Below are positions 42,201 to 54,424 of a stretch of DNA of 64,000 nt, piece by piece; position 1 is the first letter of the stretch; each line of letters begins with the position of its first letter. The notes beneath the pieces were generated by a model. It was given only the letters and a program-made list of their open reading frames with translations, had not been told where the DNA came from and did not search any database. The DNA is taken from contig NC_021921.1 of NCBI RefSeq assembly GCF_000470655.1, forward strand, positions 2,232,001-2,296,000, given 5' to 3'. This DNA is from Halorhabdus tiamatea SARL4B. GTDB taxonomy: Archaea; Halobacteriota; Halobacteria; Halobacteriales; Haloarculaceae. The translations under genes were made by a program, and so were the position numbers.

Positions 42201-42277
42201 GCCTTCGGATCTAGGTAGTCCAGCGATTCCTGCCCCGATCGTAACACGATTAGTGGCCCTCCGTGTGTGTTGGCGCA

Positions 42278-43774
42278 ATGACGACCCCGGAACTCGTGAC
42301 CGACCTGGCGACCTTCCGCGAGCGTGCGGCGGGAGCCGATCCCGGCGATCGTGTCCCGGTCGAAGCACGGGTCACAGTCGCTGATCCCTTCGAGGCCTAC
42401 CGGCGTGCGCGCCAGGTATCGGGTGGTTGTTTTCTCGAGACCAGCGGCGGTACCGACGGCTGGAGTTACTTCGGCGTCGAGCCGTTCGAGTGGCTGACCG
42501 TCGATCCGGGCAGTGACACGATCGGGACGCTCGTCGATCGACTCGACGAGGAGCACCTTCACCGGCGGGGAACAGACGTCCCCTATCCGTGTGGGACCAT
42601 CGGGTGGCTCTCGTATGACGTCGCCCGGGAGATCGAGGACCTCCCCGGGTCGGCCGAGCGCGACCGGGATCTGCCGCGGCTGCAAGTGGCCTTCTACGAC
42701 ACACTCGCCGCCTGGCAAGAGCCCGCCGAATCGCCGGTGACACTCCGCGTGACGGCGTGTCCGAGGGTCGAGAGCGACCCGGACGCGGCCTTCGAGCGGG
42801 GACGCGAGCGCGCACTCGATCTGGCCCGGCGGGCCGTCGACGGGGATATCGACGTTCAGGACCCGCCATCGGCGGGGACGGTCCGCTTCGAGAGCGATAC
42901 CGGCCGGAATGCCTTCACCGACCGCGTCGACCGCGTCAGGGAGTACATTCACGAGGGCGACACCTTCCAGGCCAATATCTCCCATCGCCTGACTGCCCCG
43001 GCGGCGGTCCACCCTGTCGACGCTTTCGAGTCGCTTCGTGCCGGGAACCCGGCTCCATACTCGGCGCTGCTGGAATTTCCGGCCGCCGATCTGGTGAGTG
43101 CGAGTCCCGAACTCCTCCTCCATCGCGAGGGCGACCGGCTCGTCACTGAACCCATCGCCGGGACGCGGCCGCGGGGAGAGACGCCCGCGGAGGACCGCGA
43201 TCTCGAGGCCGACCTCCGCGCGGACGAAAAAGAGCGGGCCGAACACGCGATGCTGGTCGATCTCGAACGCAACGACCTGGGGAAGGTCAGCGAATTCGGG
43301 AGCGTCGACGTCCGGGAGTACCGGCGGGTGGATCGCTACTCCGAGGTGATGCATCTCGTCTCGCTCGTCGAAGGACAACTTCGGGACGACCGGGATCTGG
43401 CCGACGCGATCCGCGCGGTGTTCCCCGGGGGGACGATCACCGGCGCGCCGAAACCACGGACGATGGCGATCATCGACGAACTCGAAGCGACCCGTCGCGG
43501 CCCCTACACCGGCAGCATCGGGATCTTCGGCTTCGACGACCGGGCGACACTGAACATCGTCATCCGGACGCTGGTCCGCCAGTCAGAGGCATACCACCTC
43601 CGGGTCGGCGCGGGGATCGTCCACGATTCGGTGCCCGACCGGGAGTACGACGAGACGCTCGACAAGGCCCGGGCGCTGGTGACGGCCGTCGGCGACGCGC
43701 TCGATCGGGACCTCTCGGTGGACGGCGTTCGTCCCACCGATCGAGGCGACCCCACTCCGGAGGGATCTGAATGA
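42278..43774 (+). CDS. pabB: Aminodeoxychorismate synthase component I
   Basis: 498 residues of the chorismate-binding family, with [60 protein letters not shown] and [15 protein letters not shown]. It is first of a pabB-pabA-pabC run with overlapping ends, so aminodeoxychorismate for p-aminobenzoate is the likely product. Anthranilate synthase is the alternative, but the class IV aminotransferase partner argues against it. ATG start 42278. Confidence 0.9.
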
Positions 43775-44403
43775 CTGGTCCGATCCTCGTCGTCGACAAC
43801 TACGACTCCTTTGCGTACAACCTCGTCCAGTACGTCGGGACGGCGCTCTCGAGTGGCGTTTCCCCCCACCTGCGACCTGCGGACCCCCGCGAAGCCGTCG
43901 TCGTCAGGCGCAACGACGAGATCGACGCAGCCGGAATCCGCGACCTCGATCCGGCCGGGATCGTCGTCTCTCCGGGGCCGGGGACGCCAGCGGATGCCGG
44001 TGTCTCGAAGGCCGTTTTCGAGCTCAACTATCCGGCGTTCGGCGTCTGCCTGGGCCATCAGGCGCTGTGTGCCGCCCGCGGTGCCGCGGTCACGCACGCC
44101 CCCGAGGTCGTCCACGGCAAGCCATCGACGATTACCCACGACGGCCGAGAGCTGTTCGCCGACCTGCCGGCGGGGATCGACGTCGGGCGGTATCACTCGC
44201 TGGCGATCGAACGCGAGGGACTTCCCGATCGCCTCGAAGAGACGGCCTGGACCGACGACGAGTCCCGCGTGGTCATGGGCGTCCGCGACCGCGAGCGGCC
44301 ACACGTCGGCGTCCAGTTTCACCCCGAGAGCATCCTGACGGACGCGGGCCAGCAACTGGTGACGGCCTTCTGTGAACGCGCACTCGGGGGTGAGTGGGCG
44401 TGA
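43771..44403 (+). CDS. pabA: Aminodeoxychorismate synthase glutamine amidotransferase
   Basis: 210 residues, class I glutamine amidotransferase. The nucleophile Cys is in [15 protein letters not shown], the His-Glu pair in [10 protein letters not shown], and the oxyanion region is [12 protein letters not shown]. It supplies ammonia to the PabB subunit. The ATG overlaps the pabB stop (ATGA), showing translational coupling and 1:1 production. It could also serve an anthranilate synthase elsewhere. Confidence 0.92.
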
Positions 44404-45299
44404 GCGATTCTCCCGACGAGCGGCGATATCACGTCGACGGGGAACTCGTCCCGGCCGAAGAGGCGACCGTGAACGTGCGCGATCGCGGGTTCATGTACGG
44501 CGACGGGGCCTTCGAGACGCTCCGGGCCTACGGCGGCGAGGTCCTCGCCTGGGACGCCCACGCCGACCGCCTCGAACGCACCTGCGAGCGGCTGGGATTC
44601 GCTCGGGCGATCCCGCCACGGGACGACCTCCGTGATCGAATTGCTGAGACGCTCGCGGCCAACGACCTCGCCGACGCGTACGTCAAACTCTCGATCTCCC
44701 GGGGCGTCCAGGCCGGGAAACTCACCCCAGACCCCGCGGTCGACCCGACGATCGTCGTGATGGTCGATTCGCTCCCCCGGGGCGGCATCGACGGCGACCC
44801 GGTCTGGGACAGTCCGGCGACCGTCCGGACGGCCGAGACTCGGAAGATCCCCGACGATGCGTTGCCAGCGGCTGTGAAAACGCACAACTACCTCAACGGG
44901 ATCCTCGCCCGACTCGAACTCCAGCAGGGGATCGACGGCGACCCGGCCGACGAGGCGCTGCTGTTCGACACCGACGAGTATCTCGCGGAAGGAGCGACGA
45001 GCAACGTCTTCTTCGTCGCGGGTGGCGTCCTCTACACGCCGACGGCCGACCAGTCGATCCTCCCCGGCGTGACTCGCTCGATGGTCCTGGACCTCGCCCG
45101 TGAGGAGGGACTGCCGGTCGAGACGGGCCGCTACGAGCGCGAAGAGCTGCTTGGGGCTGACGAGGCGTTTCTGACGAACACGACCTGGGAACTCCGCCCG
45201 ATCGAGGCCGTCGACGGCGAGTCGATCGGTGCCGGCCCGGTGACTCGCCTGCTCGCCCGACTCTACGATCGGCGCGTCGAGCGATCGTGTTACGAGTAA
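44400..45299 (+). CDS. pabC: Class IV aminotransferase, likely aminodeoxychorismate lyase
   Basis: 299 residues, PLP-dependent fold type IV. The catalytic Lys is in LPAAVKTHNYLNGILA. Other motifs are VRDRGFMYGDGAFETLRAYG, LAEGATSNVFFVAGGVLYTP and LGADEAFLTNTTWELRPIEA. The GTG start (44400) overlaps the pabA stop. By context it releases p-aminobenzoate from aminodeoxychorismate. Branched-chain or D-amino-acid aminotransferase activity is possible for this family, but linkage favours PabC. Confidence 0.88.
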   Translation: MSDSPDERRYHVDGELVPAEEATVNVRDRGFMYGDGAFETLRAYGGEVLAWDAHADRLERTCERLGFARAIPPRDDLRDRIAETLAANDLADAYVKLSISRGVQAGKLTPDPAVDPTIVVMVDSLPRGGIDGDPVWDSPATVRTAETRKIPDDALPAAVKTHNYLNGILARLELQQGIDGDPADEALLFDTDEYLAEGATSNVFFVAGGVLYTPTADQSILPGVTRSMVLDLAREEGLPVETGRYEREELLGADEAFLTNTTWELRPIEAVDGESIGAGPVTRLLARLYDRRVERSCYE

Positions 45300-45330
45300 C
45301 GGTCTCGAACGGCGGTGCAGTCACGGTCGC

Positions 45331-46122
45331 TCAGTCCGTCCGGGGCAACGTGAACGCGCCGAGCCCGAACGTCACAATCGCGAGCACCGACAGGATCGCG
45401 AGGTTGACGGCCGGATCGGGGCCGGCGGGCCAGACGGCGACGACCGTTCCCTCGACGCCTGCGCCGGGGTCGGTCACGACCGCTCGGACACCTCGTGAAA
45501 AGTACGTGAGCGGCGAGAGCTCGATCAGCGGCCGGAACCACTCCGGGAGGAGTTCCGGCGGGACGAACGTCTCCGAGAGGAAGAGCAGCGGGAGCGCAAG
45601 CGTATTCGACGCGGCGATCACGCCGTCCTGAGAATCGGTGAAACTCCCGAGCAACGCGCCGATACCACAGAACAGCGCGACGCCGATGACGAGGAACGGA
45701 ACCAGCCACGGCGAGGGGACGATCGTCGCGCCGGTGACGGCCACCATCACCGCGAGGACCAGCACGGCCGCGACGCCGATGATGGCGACGTTGACGATCG
45801 TCTGGGCCAGCAACCACTCCGCCCGCGACAGCGGCGTGGTCGCCAGCTTCTCGAAGCGACGGCCGTCGCGGTGGCGCGCGACCTCACTCCCCACCCTGGA
45901 GAGCGGTGTAAAGAGGACGACGACCGCGAGATACCCCGGGACGTAGTACGCCGGCGGTTCGGTGAAGAGGCCACCGCCGGTGGGCTGGGTCTGGACCAGC
46001 GCGCCGAAGATGAGGACGATCAGGAGCGGAAACAGGAACGTAAAGAAGACCGCCGTCCGGCGACGGAGAAACGCCCGCGTCGCCGCGCGGGTCTCGCTCG
46101 CGATCCGACCGAGTCGGCTCAC
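45331..46122 (-). CDS. ABC-2 type permease subunit
   Basis: 263 residues with six hydrophobic segments of the ABC-2 export family: FLRRRTAVFFTFLFPLLIVL near the N-terminus, PLSRAEWLLAQTIVNVAIIG, and FLSETFVPPELLPEWFRPLI with ELSPLTYFSRGVRAVV. GTG 46122 overlaps the ATPase stop by 4 nt. It is last of the minus-strand run ctaB - DUF7546 - ATPase - permease, so a role in cytochrome oxidase maturation is a reasonable inference. The substrate is unknown. Confidence 0.88.
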   Translation of the reverse strand: MSRLGRIASETRAATRAFLRRRTAVFFTFLFPLLIVLIFGALVQTQPTGGGLFTEPPAYYVPGYLAVVVLFTPLSRVGSEVARHRDGRRFEKLATTPLSRAEWLLAQTIVNVAIIGVAAVLVLAVMVAVTGATIVPSPWLVPFLVIGVALFCGIGALLGSFTDSQDGVIAASNTLALPLLFLSETFVPPELLPEWFRPLIELSPLTYFSRGVRAVVTDPGAGVEGTVVAVWPAGPDPAVNLAILSVLAIVTFGLGAFTLPRTD

Positions 46123-47093
46123 GACGATCCCTCCGTGGGGGTTGCTGACGCGCTCGGGTTGTCGGCCCCCGTTTCGGTCTCGTCGTCGAGTCGCCGTCCG
46201 CCGCGGCCGACAGCAGTCCCCGTGAGTTCGAGGTAGACGTCTTCGAGGGCCGGCTCGCTCCAACTTAGCGACTCGGTTTCGATCCCCGACTCCGTGAGCG
46301 CGTCGACGACGTTGCCGATCTCGGTCGGGGCGACGTCGAACACCCGCAGATCCCCATCGGTGATCGCGGTTCGGTAGCCGAGGGTGGGCGCGTCTGCTTC
46401 AGCGAGCGGCGTGGGCGTCTCGATCGTCAACCGACTCTCGCCGCCGTGGGCGTCGATAAGTGCTGTGGGCGTGTCCACGGCGACCACCGACCCGTCGGCG
46501 AGCAGTCCCACGCGGTCGGCCAGCCGGTCGGCCTCGTGCATGTCGTGGGTCGTCAGAAAGATCGTCGTGCCGTCTGCGGCCAGCGCTTCGAGGAGATTCC
46601 AGAGCTGACGTCGCCCGGCAGGATCGATCCCCGTCGTCGGCTCGTCGAGGACGAGCAGATCGGGGTCGTTGACGAGCGCGCTCCCGACGCAGACCCGGCG
46701 TTGCTGGCCGCCCGAGAGATTTTCGTAGTAGGTGTCGGCGCTCTCGACCAGGCCGACGTCCCGGAGGACGCGCCCGGGTGCGAGGGCGTCGTCGTACAGC
46801 CCGGCGTAGTATTCGAGTAGCTCACGAGCCGTCAGGCGCTCGTGGGGCGAGAACGACTGGGGAAGCGAGCCGAGTCGCGACCGGTCGATCGCGCGCGGGT
46901 CCTCGCCGAACAGCGAGACTGTACCCTCGTAGTCGGTCGTCCCCGTGATCGCCCGGGCGAGCGTCGTCTTGCCCGCGCCGTTTGGCCCGACCAGTCCGAA
47001 TATTTCACCAGCGTCGACCGACAGCGAGACGGAATCGAGTGCAACAGTGTCGCCGTAGGTTCGCCGGACCTCCTCGATCGCGATGGCACTCAC
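46119..47093 (-). CDS. ABC transporter ATP-binding protein (export type)
   Basis: 324 residues: Walker [19 protein letters not shown]-loop GSLPQSFSPHERLTARELLE, signature LSGGQQRRVCVGSAL, Walker B LLVLDEPTTGIDPAGR and the H-loop in IFLTTHDMHEAD. The C-terminal DUF4162-like segment (about 220-300) is typical of CcmA/NatA drug-export ATPases. GTG 47093 is used as start because the upstream frame is low-complexity Arg/Ser and non-coding. It partners the permease at 45331. Confidence 0.9.
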   Translation of the reverse strand: MSAIAIEEVRRTYGDTVALDSVSLSVDAGEIFGLVGPNGAGKTTLARAITGTTDYEGTVSLFGEDPRAIDRSRLGSLPQSFSPHERLTARELLEYYAGLYDDALAPGRVLRDVGLVESADTYYENLSGGQQRRVCVGSALVNDPDLLVLDEPTTGIDPAGRRQLWNLLEALAADGTTIFLTTHDMHEADRLADRVGLLADGSVVAVDTPTALIDAHGGESRLTIETPTPLAEADAPTLGYRTAITDGDLRVFDVAPTEIGNVVDALTESGIETESLSWSEPALEDVYLELTGTAVGRGGRRLDDETETGADNPSASATPTEGSS

Positions 47094-47100
47094 GCTTCGA

Positions 47101-47802
47101 TCACCACCGACCACTCCTATAGTCGATTCGGTTCCCGACAGTCGGTCGCCACGCGAGCAGGACGACCGAGACGACGAAGATCGCCGTCGAGAGGTCGTAG
47201 CCGCCGCCGAAGACGACCGTCGCGAGCGCCGTCGATCCACCGATCGTGCCGGCCAGCGGGACCACGACGGCGGCCCAGACGCAGGAGACACACGAGAAGA
47301 GTCCGAGGATCGCGGGCAGCACGCCGGCGGCCTCGACGACCAGTGTGTATACGAGGTAAGACAACGTAATGTATCCCAGGACCTTGTAGGGCAGCAGCGT
47401 CACCGAGAGGCCGGCGAGATCAGCTGAGACGACTGGGGCCCAGCCGGGCGGGAACACCAGCGGCCGGATCGAGAGGGTGGCGGCGTCGGTCATGGCCGTC
47501 GAGACAAGGCCACCGAGATATGTGAGGAGGAGGGCGTAGCCGGTAGCGACCGCGCCCCCGAACAGTTTCCGCCATCGTGGGGCGTCCGGTGGTCGGACTG
47601 TCGCGAGCGCCCACAGGGAGACGTTGATCCAGACGAACGGGTAGACGTACAGCCTGGACGACGCCAGATCGAACACCTGGGCGTCGGCGACGAAGAGATA
47701 GCCCAACAGGAGGAGTATCTCGACGTTGATCAGCGTCGCCCACCGGAGGACGCCACGCTTCGAGACCGTCGGGAGCCGTCCGGGGAGGGTGGCCGTACTC
47801 AT
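47101..47802 (-). CDS. DUF7546-like membrane protein of heme/oxidase cluster
   Basis: 233 residues with about six hydrophobic helices, including GVLRWATLINVEILLLLGYL, FGGAVATGYALLLTYLGGLV and VLPAILGLFSCVSCVWAAVV with a CVSC motif. Haloarchaeal proteins of this kind sit next to heme O synthase. The CxxC pair inside a membrane helix could bind copper or heme, but that is speculation. The start overlaps the ctaB stop by 4 nt and the ATPase start follows 7 nt after its own stop. Confidence 0.78.
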   Translation of the reverse strand: MSTATLPGRLPTVSKRGVLRWATLINVEILLLLGYLFVADAQVFDLASSRLYVYPFVWINVSLWALATVRPPDAPRWRKLFGGAVATGYALLLTYLGGLVSTAMTDAATLSIRPLVFPPGWAPVVSADLAGLSVTLLPYKVLGYITLSYLVYTLVVEAAGVLPAILGLFSCVSCVWAAVVVPLAGTIGGSTALATVVFGGGYDLSTAIFVVSVVLLAWRPTVGNRIDYRSGRW

Positions 47803-49232
47803 ATCGCCATCGCGTCGATCACGACCGCGACCAGCAGTGCCCCGAGGAAGGCGTTCGAGGCGTGAAAGGCCCGGAAGGCCGCGTTCGTCGTCCGTTCACG
47901 ATGCAATCGGATAACTGCCCACAGGAAGACGGCCCCGACGGCCGCGACCGTCGCCCCGTAGAGGACGCCGAGGTTCGCGAGCGCGGCGAGTCCGCTGGCT
48001 GCCAGCAGCGTCGCGCCGAGATACAGCAGGATGTGCTTGTGAGTCTCCGTCTCGCCGCGGACGACCGGCATCATCGGGAAGCCGCCGCGCGCGTAGTCCT
48101 CGCGGTAGGCCAGCGCCAGGTTGTAGAAGTGCGCCGGCGTCCACAGGAAGATGATCCCCGCAAGCGCCAGTCCGGGGACGCCGATCGTCCCCGTCACGGC
48201 GACCCAGCCGATGAGTGCCGGTAGCGCGCCCGCAAAGCCGCCGATGACCGTGTTCTGGACGGTGTTTGGCTTGAGGACGAGCGTGTAGACGACGCTGTAA
48301 AAGAGGATCGCCGCGAGTCCCAGCGCAGCGGCGAGCAGGTTGATGGTGGCGAAGACAGCAAGCGAGAGGACGGACAGGGCGAATCCGAAGGCGACTGCGT
48401 TCCGGATCGGAATTCGATCCGTCACCACCGGCCGGTCGGACGTTCGCTGCATCCGCTTGTCGACGTCGCGTTCGAGGACGTGGTTGAAGGTTCCGCTGGC
48501 ACCGATCGCGAGGACGCCGCCAGTCAGCGTGGCGAGGATCGTCCCCACCGTCAGCGCCGGCCCCGCCGCCAGTGCCATTCCGGCGGAGGCGACCAGACAC
48601 AGCAGCCACATCAGGCGTGGCTTGGTCAGTCGAACGTACGCTCGCACCGTCGCGAGCAGGCCGGTCTGCCCGCCCGGGGGAGTCGCCCCGGCTTCCTCAC
48701 TGCCGGCCGACTCCGTCACCTCCGGCGGCTGTGGGACGCCGTCCGGTCGGTCCGTCGGATCGCCGTACTCCGTCTCGAGGTGCCAGGCGAGTGCGAGGAC
48801 CAGCGTCGTAAAGAGCGCCATCGCGGCCCCGAGGTGGACAATCGGCGCGATTCCGGTCCCGCCGGTCACCGTCACGACGGCTCCGAGGCCGACCTGGGCC
48901 GCGAACAGGACGACGGCGACCGCGAGCGCCACCCGGACGCGCCGGTCCTCGAGCCGTTGTATGCCGATCGCTGCAGTCCCGAGGACTGCGAGGCCGACAA
49001 CGGCTGCGAGCAGGCGGTGGCCCCACGCGACCGCGAGCGCCGGCGAGTCGGCGGTCGGGAGTCCACAGGCCGGCCAGCTCGAGCAGGCGGCCGCGGCGTC
49101 GGTGATCGCGGCCGTCGCGCCGGCGATCACGAGCAGATAGACGCCGACGATCGTCCCGGCCAGCAGCGTCGACAGCGGGACGCCGTCGGTTTGGTTTCCT
49201 ACCACTGTTCTGTGACTCTCCGTGGCGGGCAT
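47799..49232 (-). CDS. ctaB: Heme O synthase with N-terminal CtaA-like half
   Basis: 477 residues in two parts. Residues 1-155 have four helices with heme-A-synthase (CtaA/COX15)-like features: CSSWPACGLPTADSPA, VAWGHRLLAAVVGLAVLGTA and VHLGAAMALFTT. Residues about 200-477 are the UbiA-family protoheme farnesyltransferase: YVRLTKPRLMWLLCLVASAG, NHVLERDVDKRMQRTSDRPV, YTLVLKPNTVQNTVIGGFAG and REDYARGGFPMMPVVRG. It makes heme O, and the first half may support heme A formation or heme binding. This fused form is known in haloarchaea. It diverges from coxB. Confidence 0.92.
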   Translation of the reverse strand: MPATESHRTVVGNQTDGVPLSTLLAGTIVGVYLLVIAGATAAITDAAAACSSWPACGLPTADSPALAVAWGHRLLAAVVGLAVLGTAAIGIQRLEDRRVRVALAVAVVLFAAQVGLGAVVTVTGGTGIAPIVHLGAAMALFTTLVLALAWHLETEYGDPTDRPDGVPQPPEVTESAGSEEAGATPPGGQTGLLATVRAYVRLTKPRLMWLLCLVASAGMALAAGPALTVGTILATLTGGVLAIGASGTFNHVLERDVDKRMQRTSDRPVVTDRIPIRNAVAFGFALSVLSLAVFATINLLAAALGLAAILFYSVVYTLVLKPNTVQNTVIGGFAGALPALIGWVAVTGTIGVPGLALAGIIFLWTPAHFYNLALAYREDYARGGFPMMPVVRGETETHKHILLYLGATLLAASGLAALANLGVLYGATVAAVGAVFLWAVIRLHRERTTNAAFRAFHASNAFLGALLVAVVIDAMAI

Positions 49233-49359
49233 TAGTTAGGCTTCGCTCCGCTGCAACACTTGTCGGGTTCGAGCCCCGGGGTTCGTGTGCGGGTCGAAAG
49301 AATCGCCGAAATTCGCCGGATGAACGCTCTTTATGAGCAGCTACCCCGAAGCCCGAGCC

Positions 49360-50064
49360 ATGACTGAGACGCGCAACGGCCTGGTGGCGACCCTGGTGGT
49401 GGTCGGGCTGGCGACGCTCGTCCCCTCCGTGGCCGCCCAGACCGGGGGATCCTCGACGACGGACGGCCTGATCTGGGGGCTCAACACCGAGTTGCTGGCG
49501 GTCGCGATTCCGATTACCATCCTGGTCGAAGCCATCCTGTTCTATACTGTCTGGCGCTTCCGTGCCGCCAAGAGCGAGGGGGCCAAACCGACCCAGGAGA
49601 ACCGCCGACTCGAGGTCACCTGGACCGTCACGACCGCGATCGTCCTGCTGTTCGTCGGCGTCGCCTCCTACGGCGTTCTCGCCCAGGACCACGTCACCGA
49701 CACAGGGCCGTCCGAAGACGCCCTCGAGGTCGACGTGATCGCCGAGAAGTACAGCTGGACGTTCCACTATCCCGAGCAGAACGTCACGACGATGGACACC
49801 CTCGTCCTTCCGGTCGATCAGGAGGTGCGGCTCAACGTCACCTCGACGGACTGGATTCACTCGTTTCACGTCCCCGATATGGGCCTGAAACAGGACGCCT
49901 TCCCCGGTGGGTCGAACCACCTGACGACAGAGCCGACCGAGACGGGGTCCTACCAGCTCTACTGTGCGGAGTTCTGCGGTGTCGGCCACTCGAGCATGCT
50001 CGGGACTGTCGAGGTCAAGAGCCAGGAGGGCTTCCAGGACTGGCTCGATCAGCAGTCCGAGTAA
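49360..50064 (+). CDS. coxB: Cytochrome c oxidase subunit II (CuA)
   Basis: 234 residues. A cleavable N-terminal signal (LVATLVVVGLATLVPSVAAQ) and two membrane helices precede the cupredoxin domain with CuA ligands in TDWIHSFHVPDMGLKQD and CAEFCGVGHSSMLG. It accepts electrons from the donor (halocyanin or cytochrome) and passes them to subunit I. ATG 49360 is about 28 nt after the TATA-like CTTTATGAG, itself inside an inverted repeat GCTC-TTTAT-GAGC (49326-49338). Subunit I is not adjacent and must be encoded elsewhere. Confidence 0.94.
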   Translation: MTETRNGLVATLVVVGLATLVPSVAAQTGGSSTTDGLIWGLNTELLAVAIPITILVEAILFYTVWRFRAAKSEGAKPTQENRRLEVTWTVTTAIVLLFVGVASYGVLAQDHVTDTGPSEDALEVDVIAEKYSWTFHYPEQNVTTMDTLVLPVDQEVRLNVTSTDWIHSFHVPDMGLKQDAFPGGSNHLTTEPTETGSYQLYCAEFCGVGHSSMLGTVEVKSQEGFQDWLDQQSE

Positions 50065-50170
50065 GGGCTCCCGGCTGAATTGATGAGTAGCGACTGATTT
50101 CTCCGGTTCAGTTCTCGCGGTCGATCGCGCTTCGGGGTTGTTTTGGGTCGCGGGTCACAACCTTCTCACG

Positions 50171-50617
50171 ATGGTTCGGTACTACGAGGACTTCGCCGTC
50201 GGTGATTCCTGGACGTTCGGGACGCGAGACGTCACCGCCGCGGAGATCACGGACTTCGCCCGCCAGTTCGACCCCCAGCCGATGCACGTCGACAGCGAGG
50301 CCGCGAGCGATGGCCCCTTCGACGGCCTGATCGCGAGCGGGTGGCACACCGCCGCGCTGTCGATGCGCCTGCTCGCGGACGGCCTCTTTCTGGACGCCGC
50401 CGGCCGTGGCGGGCTGGGCGTCGACGATCTGGAGTGGCGGACGCCACTGCGGCCGGGCGACGAACTCACTGTCGACGCGGAAGTCGTCGCTCGTGAACCG
50501 CTCGACGACGAGCGCGGCGAGGTCGACTTCGCCGTCCGGACGACGAACAGCGACGACGAGGAAGTCCTCTCGATGGTCGTCAAAGGGCTATTTGCGCGGC
50601 GGGACGCCGAAGACTGA
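50171..50617 (+). CDS. MaoC-like hot-dog dehydratase
   Basis: 148 residues with a single hot-dog fold: RYYEDFAVGDSWTFGTRDVT, FARQFDPQPMHVDSEAASDG (the R-hydratase active-site Asp/His pair) and LIASGWHTAALSMRLLADGL. It hydrates trans-2-enoyl-CoA or a related substrate. ATG 50171. It stands alone, with no fatty-acid or PHA genes nearby, and converges on btuD. Confidence 0.88.
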   Translation: MVRYYEDFAVGDSWTFGTRDVTAAEITDFARQFDPQPMHVDSEAASDGPFDGLIASGWHTAALSMRLLADGLFLDAAGRGGLGVDDLEWRTPLRPGDELTVDAEVVAREPLDDERGEVDFAVRTTNSDDEEVLSMVVKGLFARRDAED

Positions 50618-50643
50618 TTTTCCCCACTCGATCCCACTCTCTC

Positions 50644-50753
50644 ATACGGACAGTTGTAATTCGTTACCGCCCTGGGGATACCAGATGACGGGGTTCGAGG
50701 GGCGATCGGACGAGTATTCCATACATGCCGAAAATAGTTACAACTGTCCGTAT
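50644..50753. repeat. 110-bp element with perfect 16-bp terminal inverted repeats
   Basis: ATACGGACAGTTGTAA at 50644-50659 is repeated as its exact reverse complement TTACAACTGTCCGTAT at 50738-50753, with 78 bp between. The match stops sharply at 16 bp on both sides. The right end coincides with the btuD stop codon. No gene is encoded inside. It looks like a miniature inverted-repeat element, or a repeated 3'-end signal between convergent genes. Confidence 0.7.
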
Positions 50754-52045
50754 CAGTCGTCTGCGGGCACTGCCTGTGGACTCGTCGCCTCGGCGATCGC
50801 CGGCACGAGCCCGTGGATCGACGCCGTGAGCGCCCGCGATTCGAGGTCGCGATAGCACGCTCTCGCGTCTGGGCCGGCGTGGTTCCGTTCAGTTGGCGGG
50901 CGCGTCTCGACCAGGATCGGGCGCGCGCTCGATTCGGCGAGGTCGAGGACGGTCGAATCGGGGCCGACGACGGGATCGGCCAGGACTGTCGCCGCGGCGC
51001 TCCGGCAGTGCTCGCGGGCCGCTTCGAGCGCCGCTTCGTCAGGGCTCGAAAGCGGCGGGACGGCGATCGCCTCGACACCGAGTTCCTCGGCGACCGACAG
51101 CGCGGCGTCGCCGCTGGGAAGCGGGCCGGCAGTCACCTCGAAGCCGGCCTGCCAGAGCGTCGTGATGACGCGGGCAGCGGTCGCGCCGTTGCCGAGGACA
51201 TGAACCTGGGCGTCCCGGTCGCGTCGCGGTTCGGCGATGGCGGTCACGCTGGGGGTGCCGGTGACGGCGTCCGGCGTCACGGCCGTCCGGGTGTCGAAGG
51301 CGGGCTGGAGGTGCTCGTCCGTGAGGACTGTCTCGGGGTCGCCGACGGCCTGGACGTCCCCGTCGGCGAGCAACGCCAGGCGGTCACAGTACCGCGCGGC
51401 GAGATCGAGGTCGTGGATCGCCGCGATGGCCGTCTTGCCCCCCGCGACCAGATCGGCGACGAGTTCGAGGACCCGGACCTGGTGGTTGATGTCGAGGCTG
51501 GCGGTCGGTTCGTCCAGGACGAGCGCCGGCGTGTCCTGGGCGAGCGCGCGAGCCACGAACGCCCGCTGGCGCTCGCCGCCGCTGACGGCTGTGATCGGCC
51601 GGTCTCGGAGGGCTACCATTTCGGTCCGTTCGAGGGCACGATCGACGGCTTTCCGGTCGGCTTCGTCACCCGTCAGGTCGGTCCGGCCCCGGTAGGGTGT
51701 CCGTCCCATGCGGACGACATCCTCGACGGTGAACGCGAAGGAGACGGACGTATCCTGGGGGACCGTCGCGACACGGCGGCTCACGCCTCGGGGTCCGAGG
51801 TCGGCGACTGGGGTTCCGTCGAGGCGAACCGTGCCACCGGCCGGCTCGAAGACCCCGTTGATCGCCCGGGCGAGCGTCGTCTTGCCGGCCCCGTTCGGGC
51901 CGACGAGGCCGAGGAACTCGCCGGACGCGACCGAGAGCGAGACGTCTTCGAGGACATCGAGATCCCCAAACGAGACACTGATGTCCTCGACAGCGATCGT
52001 CGCTTCCGTGTCTGTGCGATCGGCGTGTGTTCGTTGTCCGGTCAT
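50753..52045 (-). CDS. btuD: Cobalamin/heme/iron-type ABC ATPase with C-terminal extension
   Basis: 430 residues. Residues about 15-265 are a FecE/BtuD ATPase: [56 protein letters not shown] and [20 protein letters not shown]. The remaining about 165 residues form a Rossmann-like domain of unknown role ([40 protein letters not shown]). ATG 52045 overlaps the btuC stop. With btuC and btuF it forms an uptake system, most likely for a corrinoid or siderophore. Confidence 0.88.
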
Positions 52046-53142
52046 AGTTCGTGTACCTCCCGGCGACCCAGCAGATAGAGGAAGAAGGGCGCACCGAGCG
52101 CCGCGGTAACGATCCCGACGGGCAGCTCGGCGGGGCCCGACCGCGCGACGGTGTCCGTCGCGACGAGGAAGGTCGCGCCGGCCAGTGCGCTCGTCGGCAG
52201 CAGAATCCGGTGGTCGGGACCGACGAGCAGGCGCATCACGTGTGGGACGATCAACCCGACGAAGCCGATGACGCCCGCGACGGCGACCGCCGCGGCCGTG
52301 AGGACACTCGAGAGCGCCAGCAGGATTCGTTTGGTCCGCTCGACGGCGATACCGACGGTCTGGGCGTCCTCCTCGCCCAGCATGAGTACGTTGAGGTCTC
52401 GGGCGTAGGCGAACAGCCCGACGAACGTCACCACCGCCACGGGGAGGGTCACCTCGACTTCGGCCCAGGAGCTGTTGTGAAGATGCCCCATCAGCCAGAA
52501 AACGGCCCGATCGAGACTCTCACCGGCTTCTAACAGGAGATAGGAGATCACGGCACCCAGGAACGTCTGGACGGCGACGCCGGCGAGCAACAGCGTCGCG
52601 ACCGGCGTCCGACCGTTCTCGGTCGCGATCGCGTAGACGGCGAAGGCCGCTACGAGCGCGCCGACGAACGCAGCCCCCTGCAGTCCAAAGGGGACAGCCA
52701 CTGGTACGGCGATGGTCGCCACGGCCCCGACCGCCGCGCCGGCCGAGACGCCGATGATCGACGGGTCGGCCATCGGGTTCCGGAAGAACCCCTGCATGAC
52801 CGCCCCGGCACTCGCGAGCGCGAACCCGACGACTGCGCCGAGTGCGATCCGCGGCAGCCGGATCTGTCGGACGATCGTCTCGGCCGTGCCGGGGACGCCG
52901 AACGAGAACGGGTAGGTGTAATGGACGTCGACAACCGGGGCTGGCATCGACAGTCCGAGGACCGACGCCTCGCTGATTCCGACATCGAGGCCCGCCGGAA
53001 TCCCGACAGCGTTGAGCGAGGCCTTCGCGACGGTCGATACGTCTATCGCGACCGGCCCGACGGTCGCACTCACGACTGTGACGACGACGAGTGCCACCGT
53101 CAACCCGGCCGTCCAGACGCCGATTCGGAGTCCGATCCGCAT
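52042..53142 (-). CDS. btuC: FecCD/BtuC-family ABC permease
   Basis: 366 residues with about ten hydrophobic helices. It shows [60 protein letters not shown] and [20 protein letters not shown], all hallmarks of vitamin B12 and iron-siderophore permeases. ATG 53142 (MRIGLRIG) is preferred. An in-frame ATG at 53163 is only about 10 nt from the TATA at 53167-53178, too close for archaeal initiation. Translated together with btuD. Confidence 0.9.
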
Positions 53143-53166
53143 TGACGACAAGTTGAGTTGCATTAG

Positions 53167-53178
53167 ATAAATATTTAT
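53167..53178. promoter_or_regulatory. Palindromic TATA shared by divergent btuCD and btuF
   Basis: ATAAATATTTAT is a perfect 12-bp palindrome centred 30 nt from the btuF ATG (53204) and 30 nt from the btuC ATG (53142). Each gene is therefore leaderless from the same box read in opposite directions. Confidence 0.7.
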
Positions 53179-53203
53179 TGGATAAGGCCGGACGCCGGAG
53201 TGC

Positions 53204-54424
53204 ATGTCACGAACCATCGCCGGATTGTTTGCCGTGCTGTTGGTCGTCGGCGGCGTCGCGGGTGTCGCCGTTTCCCCCGCCGTTGGGGGGCCCGCCGCGA
53301 CCGAGACGACTGTCGACTGTTCGTTCCCGATCACCGTCACCGACGCCAGCGGGGCGAACGTGACCGTGAGCGAGGAGCCACAGCGAGTCGTCACGCTCGC
53401 ACCGAGTGCCTCCCAGGTCGTCTGGGAACTCGGTGCCGAAGACAGGGTCGTGGGGATGCCCGTCAACCCCTACACGAGCTACCTGAACGGATCGAGCGAG
53501 AAGACGAACGTCGTCGATGAGGAGGGCCAACCCCAGGTCGAGACGATCATCGGTCTCGAGCCCGATCTGGTGCTCGCGCCGAACGTCATCAGTCCAGATG
53601 CGGTCGGACAGCTCCGGGACGCTGGCGTGACGGTCTATCGCTTCGAGAGTGCGAGTTCGATCGGAGACGTCGTCGAGAAGACGCGACTCACCGGGCGACT
53701 GCTCGGCACCGACGAGACAGCCATGGAAGTCAGTGCCCGGACACGAGCGACCGTCGAGGCCTACCGGAACGCAACCGCGAGCCAGGAACGGCCGACGGTC
53801 TACTACGCCATGGGCGGTGGCTTCACCGCCGGCCCCGGCACCTTCATCGGCGACGTGATCGACGCTGCCGGCGGTGACAACGTCGCCCTTGCCGCAAACA
53901 TCAGCACCTACGACACCATCAACACCGAAATCCTCGTCGAGGAAGACCCCGACTGGATCGTCGTCTCGGGGGAGTCGCCGATCCCGTCCGATCCCGCGCT
54001 CTCGAACACGACGGCAATTCGGGAAAAGCAGACAGTCCGCGTCGACGCCAACTTCATCAGCCAGCCCGGACCGCGGGTGACCCAGCCGCTACGGACGCTG
54101 GCGACGACGTTCCACCCCGAGGCAGCAGCCGACGTAACCGTCGATCCCGCAACGGTGTCGGCTCCGATCTGTGCGGCCGACGCCACGGAGCCGACGACGA
54201 CCGAGTCAGTAGCGGAACCGACGACGGAGCCAACGACCGAGACGACGACTGCGTCACCCACTGAGACGACGGCCGAGCCGACGACGATCGATACGGTCAC
54301 CCTCGACACGAACCAGACGACGGGTTCGACCACCGAGACCACGACCGCCACCGGTCCCGGATTCGGGGTCGTGACGGCGATCGTCGCCTTGCTCGGTTCT
54401 GGGCTGTTCGTCAGACGGGATTGA
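53204..54424 (+). CDS. btuF: PGF-CTERM-anchored ABC substrate-binding protein
   Basis: 406 residues. A Sec-type signal ([20 protein letters not shown]) precedes a type III periplasmic-binding fold: [40 protein letters not shown] and [17 protein letters not shown] Thr/Glu-rich surface linker of about 60 residues follows. The PGF-CTERM sorting signal closes it ([20 protein letters not shown] with RRD), normally processed by archaeosortase A. It captures a corrinoid or metal chelate for BtuCD. The specific ligand cannot be told from sequence. Confidence 0.9.

Follow-up and report, generated by a model that had tools for sequence, protein, structure and literature searches.

What do an ATP-binding cassette (ABC) exporter and a membrane protein of the DUF7546 family do next to the genes for heme O synthase and oxidase subunit II? 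The question is raised by a locus of Halorhabdus tiamatea SARL4B, which we analyzed within a window of 64,000 nucleotides (nt) of contig NC_021921.1; all coordinates without a contig or locus prefix are positions in this window. The genes for a ctaA/ctaB fusion protein, a DUF7546 protein, an ABC ATPase and an ABC-2 permease form a compact unit next to coxB, and across the order Halobacteriales, the ABC pair (ATPase and permease) is kept and lost together with ctaB and the oxidase. The reading that we prefer, to which we assign a probability of roughly 0.45, is that the four-gene unit is a haloarchaeal operon for building a heme-copper oxidase of the CuA type, with a putative heme-side role of the ABC pair and a putative thiol or copper role of DUF7546. 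It is very probable that the unit serves oxidase biogenesis, and the transporter and DUF7546 look like helpers in the construction of this respiratory enzyme.

A four-gene unit beside coxB

The genes of the unit and the adjacent oxidase gene are the following:

47799..49232, minus strand: ctaA/ctaB fusion, a half-size heme A synthase-like domain joined to the heme O synthase CtaB (TIGR01473)
47101..47802, minus strand: DUF7546 membrane protein (PF24412, 221 bits)
46119..47093, minus strand: ABC transporter ATPase, with a GTG start at 47093 (ABC_tran, 97.9 bits)
45331..46122, minus strand: ABC-2 type permease, with a GTG start at 46122 (ABC2_membrane, 88.1 bits)
49333..50064, plus strand: coxB, oxidase subunit II with a CuA-type motif (TIGR02866; COX2, 65.5 bits)

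The fusion gene and the DUF7546 gene overlap by 4 nt, as do the ATPase and permease genes, and 7 nt separate the DUF7546 stop from the GTG of the ATPase gene; coxB is divergent from the fusion gene, across an intergenic spacer of 100 nt. The tight packing and the divergence from CuA subunit II that had been described in an earlier note on this DNA are thus borne out by the coordinates. The coxB product passes the CoxB model TIGR02866 (205.9 bits against a cut-off of 147.7) and contains the motif CAEFCGVGHSSM, which we take to fit the CuA ligand pattern. This gene is the sole CoxB match in the window genome, in which the single COX1 match above the cut-off (C2:405-1757) is distant from the operon (near C2:2,280,000); with COX1 located elsewhere and coxB adjacent, the operon appears to have stayed with coxB. 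The same arrangement, with coxB divergent from consecutive genes for the CtaA/CtaB fusion, DUF7546, the ATPase and the permease, recurs across the order and is therefore not a matter of chance. Of the eight relatives from named records that have DUF7546, two Halorhabdus come nearest, with 62-63% identity.

The CtaB part of the fusion protein (about residues 196-476; UbiA, 203 bits) passes the heme o synthase model TIGR01473 (299.4 bits against a cut-off of 210.3). The other half (about residues 1-160) scores 21.4 bits with COX15-CtaA, under the Pfam cut-off of 29.9, and is accordingly called CtaA-like here; a cysteine pair, C50/C56, can be read from its sequence in ACSSWPACG. The protein thus combines the features of type 1A heme A synthases, namely, a half-size domain, one Cys pair and fusion to heme O synthase. 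Such synthases fused to heme O synthase are already on record for Halobacteria in the part of the literature available to us (PMC12808453), and the ctaA/ctaB fusion itself is not new.

Joint retention and loss of the ABC pair, ctaB and the oxidase

The main set consisted of 117 genomes of the order, among which the class of permease orthologues is clear (the lowest accepted score is 152.9 bits and the next one 76.2 bits). The permease and ctaB are each present in 111 genomes; both are found in 110 and neither in five (G010, G012, G019, G039 and G101). The two discordant genomes, G081 with the permease only and G096 with ctaB only, are drafts that are 71% and 61% complete, respectively, and the contigs that carry DUF7546 in G081 and ctaB with DUF7546 in G096 are each about 3.4 kb long. 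The former draft, which has COX1 and CoxB, is the only one of the 111 permease-bearing genomes with no ctaB match. In a second set, from the family of G012, all 26 genomes are concordant, 23 with both genes and three with neither, and genomes G117 and G127, which belong to the same genera as genomes that lost the permease and ctaB, retain both. With the two sets pooled, 128 of 130 genomes are concordant; for the 117 genomes, the Fisher P value for co-presence is 2e-7, uncorrected for kinship. The five genomes that lack the permease and ctaB have no COX1 or CoxB match, and seven other tested genomes have both of these at E <= 0.001. At least three lineages have undergone the loss (one belongs to f10 and two are genera of f12), and the 63%-complete G019 is a possible fourth. 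An ABC pair as common without ctaB or coxB as with them was not seen, in agreement with the link between the operon and the oxidase that the earlier note had drawn. Tree-distance correlations among ctaB, the permease, the ATPase, coxB and DUF7546 (0.70-0.82 over 57 loci) only agree with vertical inheritance.

The draft genome G019, which has no oxidase matches, contains an open frame (L126, 7953-8330) that starts as CtaA (model positions 2-50, 50.3 bits) and ends as the C-terminus of DUF7546 (24.5 bits with our own model and 28.9 bits with PF24412). Neither ctaB nor the permease has a match, and the ATPase encoded downstream is not the one of the operon (32% identity). This frame is likely to be the scar of a deletion through the operon, or else it arose when two stretches of this incomplete draft were joined in assembly.

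DUF7546, a membrane CxxC family linked to oxidases

The DUF7546 protein of the window matches PF24412 at 221 bits, against a cut-off of 27. Its structural model (mean predicted local distance difference test score, pLDDT, 81) comprises six helices, with a beta region after the third one, and the CxxC motif (CVSC) lies in the fifth, so that the motif is indeed within a predicted membrane helix as the earlier note had it. The two cysteines, C171 and C174, are invariant in all 90 aligned sequences and the motif is kept in 118 of 119 DUF7546 frames, the exception being a fragment; His or Met reaches half of the 90 sequences in no column. Charges near residues 69-75 and at the C-terminus weakly suggest that both termini are inside. 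A relationship to CtaA was considered and rejected (profile comparison probability of 0.7%). Likenesses of the predicted fold (best Foldseek E of 1.1; maximum Z of 5.9 over 56 residues in the VIA rows) were read as chance, and these comparisons of a model do not establish a new fold.

DUF7546 is present in 83 of the 117 genomes, 28 of which have two or three copies, with 113 matches in total. The 112 matches outside the window genome were taken with their flanks, loci from other searches were added and identical frames were counted once; some of the loci are truncated by contig ends. Of the 83 distinct frames that are linked to ctaB, 73 have coxB within 8 kb, 71 the ATPase, 67 the permease and 50 COX1. 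Among the 36 copies located away from ctaB, 28 have both coxB and COX1 within 8 kb and none has the permease within this distance. The clusters around these copies are of two kinds, one with a COX1-COX3 fusion and COX4_pro, and the other with a Cu-ATPase containing an HMA domain and with DsbD_2; a Cu-ATPase is encoded alongside 16 and DsbD_2 alongside 14 of the 36 copies. Since most of the ctaB-distant copies lie close to coxB and COX1 and have no ABC pair nearby, the DUF7546 family is linked to oxidases on its own account. In several loci (L094, L104, L109, L111, L113, L117, L118 and others), DUF7546 immediately follows COX1 in a cluster that also contains coxB, a Cu-ATPase and DsbD_2.

The possibility that DUF7546 is a subunit of the transporter was also considered; it is unlikely given the lack of the permease near all 36 ctaB-distant copies and the presence of the permease without DUF7546 in at least 28 genomes (DUF7546 in 83 and the permease in 111 of 117). 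The CopA and DsbD_2 neighbors make thiol or copper chemistry a better guess for DUF7546 than heme binding, and we put the chances that the protein acts through such chemistry at about even.

Known assembly factors were sought in 31 genomes from across the order, three of which (G010, G012 and G019) have no oxidase matches. Surf1 and Caa3_CtaG were found in none of the 31, and PCuAC was above the cut-off in none, with one weak match; in the genomes searched, haloarchaea thus build their oxidase with no match to the first two factors and none above the cut-off to the third. Within the 28 oxidase-bearing genomes, all eight that lack DUF7546 have Sco at more than 38 bits, all nine in which Sco is absent or below 28 bits have DUF7546, and 11 have both (one-sided Fisher P of 0.024, or 0.089 by genus; this is a post hoc comparison, with the lines of 38 and 28 bits drawn after the scores were seen). 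The pattern is suggestive only, and fits shared work of DUF7546 and Sco on the copper sites. None of the 28 genomes is without both DUF7546 and a strong Sco match.

Heme or copper: the ABC pair and known systems

By sequence, the ABC pair is closest to the DrrA/DrrB type: the ATPase scores 205.1 bits with the DrrA model TIGR01188, under the cut-off of 312.45, and the DrrAB subfamily model TIGR01247 gives 62.3 bits, under the cut-off of 223.05. The nearest single solved ATPases are 4yer (139 bits over the full length) and then NosF (118 bits, nucleotide-binding domain, NBD, only); in summed score, the two-domain human ABCA proteins outscore both. The permease model (pLDDT 86) has a fold that is common to the ABCG, ABCA, KpsM and NosY permeases and is thus found in exporters of lipids and of polysaccharides alike. 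It matches ABCH-9C, solved with ceramide, at Z 22.0 (root-mean-square deviation, rmsd, 3.0; 241 aligned residues), NosY (7o0y chain E) at Z 19.0 (rmsd 3.9, 229 aligned), ABCG1 at Z 18.8 (rmsd 4.4, 252 aligned) and KpsM at Z 18.5 (rmsd 3.5, 237 aligned), so that the match to NosY is not specific; Foldseek likewise places ABCG1 first (E 7.7e-6), with NosY at E 6.1e-4. Over 34 ctaB-linked loci, the mean column identity of the permease is 65%, Cys151 is present in 33 sequences and His83 in 26, and there is neither a conserved Met beyond the start nor an invariant His. The fold matches and the conservation of the permease favor a lipid-like putative cargo and a housekeeping role.

These comparisons bear on the possibility that the ABC pair is a NosFY-like copper- or sulfur-loading machine that drives CuA assembly in the adjacent CoxB, with DUF7546 in place of NosD/NosL. 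The fold match of the permease to NosY, the place of NosF among the nearest solved ATPases, the position of coxB as the oxidase gene most often near the ctaB-linked DUF7546 frames (73 of 83, compared to 50 for COX1) and the invariant CxxC all speak for this explanation. We nevertheless consider it unlikely: the fold match is unspecific, a profile of the 34 permeases searched against the PDB returned only ABCG23-like chains (E up to 0.1) and not NosY, the permease has no invariant Met or His, and other clusters with coxB and COX1 carry a Cu-ATPase and no ABC pair. The earlier note had likened the exporter to the NosFY type. The likeness to the NosY fold stands but is shared with ABCH-9C, ABCG1 and KpsM, which match as well or better, and the label as given is not supported: by sequence, the ATPase is nearer to the DrrA model and 4yer than to NosF, and NosD is absent among the nine proteins scanned from 44394 to 53310. 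In view of the widely shared fold and of the lack of NosY among the PDB profile matches, we dropped NosFY as a specific label.

The linkage to heme O synthase and the lipid-like cargo expected from the fold would also suit an exporter of heme B or of surplus heme O/A that acts in protection, similarly to HrtAB or CcmAB, and not in assembly. This is the least probable of the alternatives, with the ATPase below the cut-off of the CcmA model TIGR01189 (104.2 against 131.6 bits) and with the expectation, which is not a result, that a detoxifier would be less widespread than ctaB.

We tentatively favor, at somewhat less than even odds, an action of the ABC pair on the heme side, with heme O/A as the candidate cargo, because the pair follows ctaB even where DUF7546 is missing and because Surf1 was not found. 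In the mechanism that we envisage, CtaB would attach the isoprenoid tail to heme, and heme A would be made by the half-size CtaA domain, which probably acts as a dimer. At the expense of ATP, the ABC pair would then transport or display heme O/A, which is lipid-like, or power the transfer of this heme to subunit I, the step at which Surf1 would act in other systems. A membrane thiol pair would allow DUF7546 to deal with Cu(I) or with the disulfide state at the copper sites, a task that it would share in part with Sco. A stronger version, which we regard as rather unlikely, is that the ABC pair and DUF7546 constitute an unrecognized archaeal machine for heme-copper oxidase assembly that replaces Surf1, CtaG and PCuAC through ATP-driven hand-over of heme A and a membrane thiol relay for copper.

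Several observations weigh against the assignment of these roles. In the tested genomes, ctaB, COX1 and CoxB travel together, so that heme and copper roles are not separable by co-presence and a copper role of the ABC pair competes with the heme-side one. The joint losses may form part of a broader disappearance of genes for aerobic life; the available part of PMC5437934 records strictly anaerobic haloarchaea in which tests for cytochrome oxidase were negative. Sco, a known copper factor, is above the cut-off in 22 of the 31 genomes searched (E <= 0.001 in 23). DUF7546 is missing from 34 of the 117 genomes, and the oxidase can therefore do without it; moreover, eight of the 36 ctaB-distant copies have neither coxB nor COX1 within 8 kb, one of these (L125) being a contig-end piece. 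Of the 110 genomes with both the permease and ctaB, 65 have the start of the permease gene no more than 5 kb from ctaB and 79 no more than 12 kb; in the other 31, the distance is greater or the two genes are on different contigs (the latter in 12 genomes). Second permease copies are present in G020 and G126, and copies that are apart from ctaB are found on Haloferax and Halorubrum plasmids.

The distant pairs and the plasmid copies, along with the DrrA/DrrB-type sequence and the lipid-exporter fold, would be explained if the ABC pair were an exporter of lipids or drugs with a general role, brought into the unit only by a shared promoter and unrelated to the oxidase. This is quite improbable in view of the joint retention or loss with ctaB in 115 of 117 and 26 of 26 genomes and of the high conservation of the permease. 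Co-presence holds even for distant pairs, which gives the link to ctaB a basis beyond gene order. No widely conserved neighbor was detected around the 29 standalone pairs (from 28 of the 31 genomes with a distant pair, plus the second copy of G020), where no cluster occurs in more than nine loci, bar frames that overlap the pair; hence the ABC pair looks like a whole transporter. Both plasmid loci lie near rdfA and an SMC-related gene, the one on the Haloferax plasmid (L127, 4823-6654) comprising the ABC pair and the one on the Halorubrum plasmid (L128, 6001-6453) a permease stretch without a listed gene. The proposal in the earlier note of a copper or heme delivery unit for the oxidase is thus supported with respect to the oxidase; as to copper or heme, DUF7546 points to thiol or copper chemistry and the ABC pair more to heme.

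In the window, the permease end of the unit is approached, across a gap of 31 nt, by a convergent trio of overlapping genes (42263-45299, plus strand) that resemble pabB/trpE, pabA/trpG and a class IV aminotransferase (only the third was included in the family scan). On the other side, a FecCD permease and an ABC ATPase with a 4-nt overlap (50753-53310, minus strand) form an importer of the iron-siderophore or vitamin B12 type.

The term DUF7546 occurs in none of the papers searched, and no description of the ABC pair or of DUF7546 as oxidase factors was found in the open-licence literature. According to the available portion of a review of bacterial oxidase assembly, the way in which heme A, once synthesized, enters subunit I is not known; no word in this portion begins with 'ABC' (PMC9145763). 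The factors that it covers, Surf1, Sco, PCuAC, Caa3_CtaG and CtaM, resemble the haloarchaeal proteins in the job proposed here, oxidase assembly, but none of them is an ABC transporter or a DUF7546 protein. Concrete targets for deletion in Haloferax are the ABC pair, which tracks heme O synthase, and DUF7546, as a membrane CxxC family found near several kinds of oxidase clusters.

With the type 1A heme A synthases of Halobacteria, the unit shares both the fusion and the half-size CtaA with one Cys pair, whereas a term search of the main text of the respective paper gave neither 'ABC transporter' nor 'DUF7546' (PMC12808453). In comparison with NosDFY, which functions in nitrous oxide reductase maturation, the permease fold is alike and the NBD belongs to the same broad group; unlike that system, the haloarchaeal pair has no NosD among the scanned neighbors and is linked to ctaB and coxB, and its fold is also that of ABCH, ABCG and KpsM. 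The available part of PMC9240420 reports 'nosFY' genes in a haloarchaeon without nosZ, and the ABC pair may be behind these genes. The DrrAB-type exporters provide the best NCBIfam models for both subunits, with scores well below both cut-offs, and the haloarchaeal pair differs from them in being tied to the presence of ctaB.

In actinobacteria, an ABC pair is presumably located beside ctaA, and Rv1456c, which we take to be CtaA, would provide a bacterial case of the linkage seen in the archaea. If the assembly machine outlined above exists, the actinobacterial pair, now called drug efflux, would be an oxidase-biogenesis system as well. The mycobacterial Rv1456c-Rv1457c-Rv1458c, described as antibiotic or glycolipid ABC transport in the available passages of PMC2440535 and PMC7761784, resembles the haloarchaeal unit in arrangement, with an ABC-2 permease and an ATPase encoded beside a membrane protein.

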